Positions 21,310-26,577 of a stretch of 33,305 bases of DNA are shown here, piece by piece. Position 1 is the stretch's first letter. Every line of letters starts with the position of its first letter. Both the position numbers and the translations under genes were made by a program. This DNA comes from Candidatus Hodarchaeaceae archaeon (GTDB lineage Archaea > Hadarchaeota > Hadarchaeia > Hadarchaeales > Hadarchaeaceae): positions 1-33,305 of the forward strand of contig JASEJC010000006.1 in assembly GCA_030016755.1 (NCBI GenBank), read 5' to 3'. Under the pieces are notes generated by a model. It was not told the DNA's origin. It ran no database searches and was given only the letters and a program-made list of their open reading frames with translations.

Positions 21310-21399
21310 TGGAGCCGGGGGCCGGATTTGAACCGGCGAATAGCGGGTTTCTGCGTGGAACTGCAGCCCGCCGCCCTAACCGGACTAGGCTACCCCGGC
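21310..21399 (-). tRNA. tRNA-Cys (GCA) with a 12-nt intron
   Basis: Cloverleaf on the minus strand with CCA encoded at 21310-21312. Acceptor GCCGGGG pairs with CCCCGGC, and the discriminator is U, the hallmark of tRNA-Cys. The D stem is GCCT/GGGC, the anticodon stem GCGGG/CCCGC, and the T loop TTCAAAT. The anticodon loop is 19 bases long. Removing 12 bases (plus 21349-21360) after position 37 restores CU-GCA-GA. The splice region forms a bulge-helix structure: CUGC pairs with GCAG, flanked by 3-base bulges AGU and AAA, each cut after its second base. A TATA-like AATAAAAAG lies upstream around 21410-21420. Confidence 0.93.
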
Positions 21400-23717: not shown

Positions 23718-23811
23718 TGGTGGGCCCGCGGGGATTCGAACCCCGGACCTTCCGGTTTCTGCCTTCGTGGGCTATCAGCCGAACGCGCTAGCCATGCTGC
23801 GCCACGGGCCC
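23718..23811 (-). tRNA. tRNA-Ile (GAU) with a 16-nt intron
   Basis: Minus-strand cloverleaf with encoded CCA at 23718-23720. Acceptor GGGCCCG pairs with CGGGCCC, discriminator A. D stem GCGC/GCGC, anticodon stem UUCGG/CCGGA, T stem CGGGG/CCCCG with loop TTCGAAT. The anticodon loop is 23 bases. Removing 16 bases (plus 23757-23772) after position 37 gives CU-GAU-AA. CUG pairs with CAG in the intron; the bulges are UAG and AAA, each cut after the second base. GCC/GGC can pair inside the intron. A TATA-like AACTTAAAAC lies about 30 bases upstream, near 23838-23847. Confidence 0.92.
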
Positions 23812-26434: not shown

Positions 26435-26531
26435 TGGTGGACCCAGCGGGATTCGGACCCGCGACCTCTCGCTTGCGAAGCGAGCGCTTTCGGCTTGGTT
26501 TTAATCCAATCTACCGCTGAGCTATGGGCCC
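26435..26531 (-). tRNA. tRNA-Ala (CGC) with a 22-nt intron in the D-arm
   Basis: Minus-strand tRNA with encoded CCA at 26435-26437 and discriminator A. Acceptor GGGCCCA pairs with TGGGTCC, giving the G3-U70 pair that identifies alanine. The anticodon loop is TT-CGC-AA on stem CTCGC/GCGAG. The D stem GCTC/GAGC is broken by 22 extra bases (plus 26489-26510) between positions 22 and 23. These form a splice structure: CGGU of the D-loop pairs with GCCG in the intron, bulges AGA and AAA are cut after their second base, and UUGG/CCAA pair inside. The T-loop reads TCCGAAT, with C where position 55 is nearly always U. Confidence 0.88.
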
Positions 26532-26577
26532 ACCAATTTTTTAGTTAGGGATATCTCATTTAATACTTGCTGGAGTT

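Follow-up and report, generated by a model that had tools for sequence, protein, structure and literature searches.

A tRNA-Ala(CGC) gene of Hadarchaeota with a probable relaxed bulge-helix-bulge intron at position 22/23 and a C at position 55

The window, a stretch of 33,305 nucleotides (contig JASEJC010000006.1) from the metagenome-assembled genome (MAG; 834 kb, 87% complete) of a Candidatus Hodarchaeaceae archaeon, phylum Hadarchaeota, very probably carries a functional tRNA-Ala(CGC) gene that is interrupted between tRNA positions 22 and 23 by an intron of the relaxed bulge-helix-bulge (BHB) kind and that has, at position 55, a C which recurs in the lineage. This kind of intron is already known in archaea, and what is new here is another case, in Hadarchaeota; no description of tRNA introns or of C55 in Hadarchaeota was found in the literature searched, subscription literature lying outside the search.

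Anatomy and conservation of the interrupted gene

Read directly on the minus strand from 26531 to 26435, the gene runs 5′-GGGCCCATAGCTCAGCGGTAG (exon 1), ATTGGATTAAAACCAAGCCGAA (intron), AGCGCTCGCTTCGCAAGCGAGAGGTCGCGGGTCCGAATCCCGCTGGGTCCACCA-3′ (exon 2), and its parts are the following.

26435..26531, minus strand: the whole tRNA-Ala(CGC) gene, intron and encoded CCA included (direct reading, cloverleaf scans, orthologue comparison)
26511..26531, minus strand: exon 1, GGGCCCATAGCTCAGCGGTAG, 21 nt, tRNA positions 1-22 (the same in intronless orthologues)
26489..26510, minus strand: intron, ATTGGATTAAAACCAAGCCGAA, 22 nt, between positions 22 and 23 (scans, fold, not present in L014, L016 and L020)
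26435..26488, minus strand: exon 2, 54 nt, positions 23-76 including CCA, beginning AGCGCTCGC (direct reading, scans, orthologues)
26513..26516, minus strand: CGGU, exon strand of the 4-bp central helix, pairing with GCCG at 26491-26494
26510..26512, minus strand: AGA, 5′ splice-site bulge with the predicted cut after its second base (fold, scan)
26488..26490, minus strand: AAA, 3′ splice site with the predicted cut after the second A (fold)
26456, minus strand: C at tRNA position 55, in the T loop UCCGAAU (direct reading)
26558..26565, minus strand: TATA-like box TATTAAAT, a putative promoter, its first base 34 nt upstream of G1 (by eye)

A complete cloverleaf with all four stems was obtained only once the 22 nt from 26510 to 26489 were removed, and an intron-placement cloverleaf scan recovered the same intron both with and without a BHB requirement; the cut can be moved by one base (A), leaving the spliced product unchanged. 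The acceptor stem has 7 bp including G3-U70, the D stem is GCUC/GAGC, the anticodon stem CUCGC/GCGAG carries the loop UUCGCAA with the anticodon CGC, the variable loop has 5 nt, and the T stem is GCGGG/CCCGC; G18 G19, C56, U8 and the entire cloverleaf are standard apart from C55. The presence of both G3-U70 and an alanine anticodon, in the sequence and in the cloverleaf scan, identifies the tRNA as tRNA-Ala, and the reading and the scans thereby confirmed a preliminary description of the window, in which this tRNA had been held to be whole only after excision of 22 nt at 22/23. That description had also warned that a standard tRNA search may miss the gene, and ARAGORN indeed did not report it, either by default or with -i, while the Rfam RF00005 match (32.5 bits) put the 5′ end inside the intron, at 26507 instead of the true 26531. 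Through introns like this one, essential tRNA genes may be lost or truncated by automatic annotation.

The minimum free energy fold of the unspliced RNA (-39.4 kcal/mol, z -2.65, with 1 of 200 shuffles equally stable) contained, without constraints, the expected splice element of CGGU/GCCG, AGA bulge and UUGG/CCAA, with the D-stem pairs G10-C25, C11-G24 and U12-A23 retained on the exon side; the mature form was likewise folded, which supports the cloverleaf. As in the BHB motif, exon and intron bases form a 4-bp central helix, which adjoins a 3-nt bulge with the predicted 5′ cut. The second 3-nt bulge that a strict BHB has at its 3′ cut was not present, the fold giving a 3x2 internal loop in which two intron As stand opposite C13-A14-G15; the 3′ site therefore lies in an internal loop, and the predicted splice motif is of the relaxed HBh′ type, not a strict bulge-helix-bulge. 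The bulge, 4-bp helix and bulge proposed in the preliminary description are thus borne out in the sequence and on the 5′ side, where the bulge is a true one, and not on the 3′ side.

An intron at the identical site was found in four relatives (G013, G008, which is Hadarchaeum yellowstonense YNP_45, G022 and G001), which with the source genome makes five genomes in all, and the exon-intron junction pattern matched four public genomes, each bearing the name Hadesarchaea or Hadarchaeum. Among these relatives the intron is 22-27 nt long, with a loop that varies in length and sequence, while its splice-site and central-helix bases, like the exon bases, are invariant or preserve pairing. The terminal pair of the central helix is U-G here and C-G in L010 and L011, and this U-to-C change was counted in favour of a genuine intron because the pair is retained. 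A TATA-like box resembling TATTAAAT stands at about the same distance in L010, L011 and L013, and the Ala(CGC) genes of G022 and G001 have a second intron, at 37/38 and 53/54, respectively (all by eye). Three sister-family genomes (L014, L016 and L020) carry an empty allele, and of 75 positions, 70-72 are identical between the spliced tRNA-Ala(CGC) and these intronless orthologues, with C55 among the 3-5 differences.

The empty allele and the near-identical spliced sequence are the strongest evidence for an intron over decay, and we take the element to be a genuine Hadarchaeota tRNA intron of the BHB type. A decayed tRNA or pseudogene whose D arm was broken by an insertion would account for C55, for the low Rfam score and for the lack of an ARAGORN report, but it is highly improbable, given that the stems are all perfect after excision, that G3-U70, CCA and a TATA-like box are kept, that the intron is shared between genera and occurs in another family of the order, and that a random insertion would not preserve the splice-site sequence while the loop varies. 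If the gene is expressed, as we infer, the D-loop CGGU of the transcript would pair with the intron GCCG beside the intron hairpin UUGG/CCAA, the splicing endonuclease EndA would make one cut in the AGA bulge, 3′ of its second base, and the other within the AAA loop, and the exons would be ligated, RtcB-type ligation being assumed, with the D stem restored.

Further introns and the splicing endonuclease

The tRNAs of the source genome (G000) were examined with a scan requiring BHB geometry, in which intron numbering is approximate and multi-intron solutions are tentative. Multiple further introns with the same motif were placed away from 37/38, including a 31-nt intron at 53/54 in Ala(GGC) (L061, G000:C3:17779-17883, minus), an apparent 24-nt intron at 8/9 in Ser(CGA) (L084, G000:C7:448-617), because of which Rfam gives that gene as a partial tRNA (28 bits), and introns near 29/30 in Ser(GCT) and near 30/31 in a CCT-anticodon tRNA; intron pairs were tentatively placed in additional genes. 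Where 37/38 introns of this genome were resolved, their motif is strict, with an outer helix of 5-7 bp, and those elsewhere are mostly not strict (outer helix of 0-2 bp, one of 4). With several non-37/38 introns sharing the motif, the splicing route would therefore be used repeatedly.

The Ala(GGC) intron and that of Ala(CGC) in G001 (L013:1447-1574, minus) are similar 31-nt T-arm introns at 53/54, as if an intron had been transferred between isoacceptors or a gene duplication had carried it. Elsewhere in the source genome, a tRNA-Phe(GAA)-like gene (L085, G000:C48:2716-2870) has an apparent intron directly after the D stem, and a tRNA-Asp(GUC)-like gene, possibly divergent, has no encoded CCA (L080, G000:C55:15962-16136).

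The introns resemble the relaxed BHB (HBh′/hBH) introns, best known from Crenarchaeota such as Thermoproteales, in being short and off 37/38, with a 4-bp central helix and cuts predicted to follow the second base of the bulge, and in occurring several per genome at sites that orthologues share. They differ in belonging to the phylum Hadarchaeota, where the endonuclease of the relatives is a single gene without the Crenarchaea-specific loop (CSL).

An extra lysine-bearing loop in the endonuclease has been linked to non-37/38 tRNA introns. Hadarchaeota genomes yielded one good EndA match of ~180 aa, with none in a few less complete genomes, and the relatives carrying this intron have a single EndA gene that lacks the CSL. 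The protein aligns over nearly its full chain with the homotetrameric EndA of Methanocaldococcus jannaschii (PDB 1a79, E 2.5e-37), which it also resembles in length, in being encoded once per genome and in retaining the catalytic Tyr/His/Lys positions; a difference is that the genomes of these relatives hold relaxed-motif introns, which enzymes of this class are not reported to process efficiently. The alignment, made up of 22 Hadarchaeota relatives and not including an EndA from the source genome, has a 9-residue gap in all 22 sequences where Aeropyrum, G030 and G037 have a loop, and this insertion in the crenarchaeal alpha subunits was taken as the CSL from its place and its lysine. No second EndA subunit, as a further PF01974 or PF02778 match at E <= 1, was found in the near-complete genomes G007, G008, G023 and G025. 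Weak second PF01974 matches (E 0.01-0.06, in ~360-aa frames of genus g5) were rejected as a subunit on account of partial domain coverage and their confinement to one genus. Neither a lysine-bearing CSL nor a second subunit or fused repeat, the marks of a broad-specificity EndA of the (alpha-beta)2 type or of the epsilon-2 type with CSL or ASL (ARMAN-specific loop), was thus found in the Hadarchaeota relatives. The earlier proposal that the intron needs a broad-specificity endonuclease turns into a puzzle, as the presence of a known broad type was not established: the single EndA of the relatives, without a CSL, is of the class regarded as narrow, and the MAG itself gave none.

The Hadarchaeal EndA may be broader in specificity than other enzymes of its class, or else the searches may have overlooked a divergent partner. 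The latter, in which splicing in Hadarchaeota is done by an ordinary broad-specificity heteromer whose second EndA subunit is very divergent, we consider unlikely, since the search that found no such subunit in the four near-complete genomes did find two subunits in G030, G036 and G037; moreover, a beta subunit alone need not confer breadth, as illustrated by the EndA of Methanopyrus kandleri, which is (alpha-beta)2, loopless and constrained (PMC6379350). Hadarchaeota, with their apparently many non-37/38 introns and a loopless EndA, offer a natural test of the loop-specificity idea. In Hadarchaeota relatives (loci L046 and L032), the gene that directly follows EndA reads as a tryptophanyl-tRNA synthetase, with HxGH-like and KMSSS motifs recognised by eye.

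C at position 55 and Pus10

With a C at 26456, the T loop of tRNA-Ala(CGC) lacks the U55 of the U55/Psi55 type (Psi, pseudouridine), although almost every tRNA has a U there. The preliminary description was right about this base, which is not unique to the gene, as the source genome has three C55 tRNAs, Val(GAC), Leu(CAA) and Ala(CGC). Val(GAC) has C55 in G000 and G006, and Leu(CAA) has it in G000, G004 and G014, these genomes being separate assemblies. When T arms were scored by a CCA-anchored pattern, which omits tRNAs without an encoded CCA such as a C55 tRNA in G008:C49, C55 was present in 12 of 579 from 27 Hadarchaeales (567 T55) and in 12 of 2023 from 220 other archaeal genomes (2011 T55), a difference with a Fisher p of 0.0025 when shared ancestry is ignored. 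This pattern was used in place of a short C55 pattern, dropped as too unspecific, and the counted non-Hadarchaeal cases proved on checking to lie in tRNA-like genes whose T and acceptor stems pair.

An assembly or sequencing error at C55 of Ala(CGC) would explain why all seven other orthologues compared have T, and is nevertheless very unlikely, because Val(GAC) and Leu(CAA) also have C55 in different assemblies and three independent errors at one tRNA position in one genome are improbable. Read error also seems an unlikely explanation of C55 in general, and to judge from these comparisons C55 is a genuine T-loop variant that recurs in the lineage. Equally hard to credit is C-to-U editing of C55 in the RNA, followed by normal Psi55 formation: the recurrence in unrelated tRNA species would suit it, as would an archaeal precedent reported for tRNA base 8 of M. 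kandleri (PMC3695527), but no PF00383 deaminase match was found in the source genome or in the C55 genomes G004, G008 and G014, other deaminase families not having been sought. One PF00383 match each, in frames of 156-194 aa, was found in G001, G006 and G020.

In archaea, Pus10 is the synthase that usually makes Psi54 and Psi55. None of the 27 Hadarchaeales gave a full-length Pus10 (TIGR01213), and their weak match of 30-40 bits was, where inspected, the Cbf5-like protein that is present in the order; G027, from an outgroup family of the same phylum, has a full-length Pus10. Across the 247 genomes C55 was commoner without Pus10 than with it (15 of 745 against 9 of 1857, p 0.0008; ~10 against 7 with shared cases collapsed, p 0.012). 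The association of C55 with the absence of Pus10 in Hadarchaeales is suggestive, and relaxed selection on U55 in a Pus10-less lineage appears the likeliest cause of C55, a claim weaker than that for the intron. In that case either Cbf5 would make Psi55 or the modification would be absent. Cbf5 forms Psi55 in vitro, its role in other archaea being left open (PMC6138745), and the tRNAs of this order can reveal whether it does so in vivo in any archaeon. C55 in a natural tRNA is also seen in the bacterial tRNA-Pyl of Desulfitobacterium hafniense, where it contacts G13 (PMC7609411); unlike there, position 13 of tRNA-Ala(CGC) is a C paired with G22, and a C55-G13 contact of that type is therefore unavailable. 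The C55 tRNAs of Hadarchaeales can show how the tRNA elbow holds with C55.

Several results weigh against the account given here of a relaxed intron and a lineage-recurrent C55. No EndA match was found in the MAG of the gene (87% complete), most probably because of its incompleteness, and enzymes of the class seen in the relatives are considered to process relaxed motifs poorly (PMC6379350), with one qualification, namely that a homodimeric alpha-prime-2 EndA cleaves loop-type motifs in full-length pre-tRNA at 37/38. The C55 counts are phylogenetically non-independent, and collapsing shared cases leaves a weak excess (p ~0.01-0.03). C55 also occurs in archaea with Pus10 (G037, G059, G030, G088 and G053), and Pus10 loss would therefore be at most a contributing cause; a strict rule that it causes C55 was rejected, as most non-Hadarchaeal cases come from genomes that have Pus10. 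A broader account can be offered only tentatively, in which the single-subunit, M. jannaschii-type EndA of Hadarchaeota, with no Crenarchaea- or ARMAN-specific loop, would remove relaxed BHB introns from many tRNAs, so that the accepted link between loop and breadth would not be general, and in which loss of Pus10 would have freed U55, so that tRNAs would function with C55 and lack Psi55. On the sequences compared, the mismatch of EndA class and the recurrence of C55 in a Pus10-less order seem the points worth specialist attention.

Other RNA genes of the window

Two further tRNA genes of the window, tRNA-Cys(GCA) at 21310-21399 and tRNA-Ile(GAU) at 23718-23811, both on the minus strand, have a short anticodon-loop intron each. 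An archaeal RNase P RNA lies at 2470-2757 on the plus strand, with a full-length match of 196 bits.
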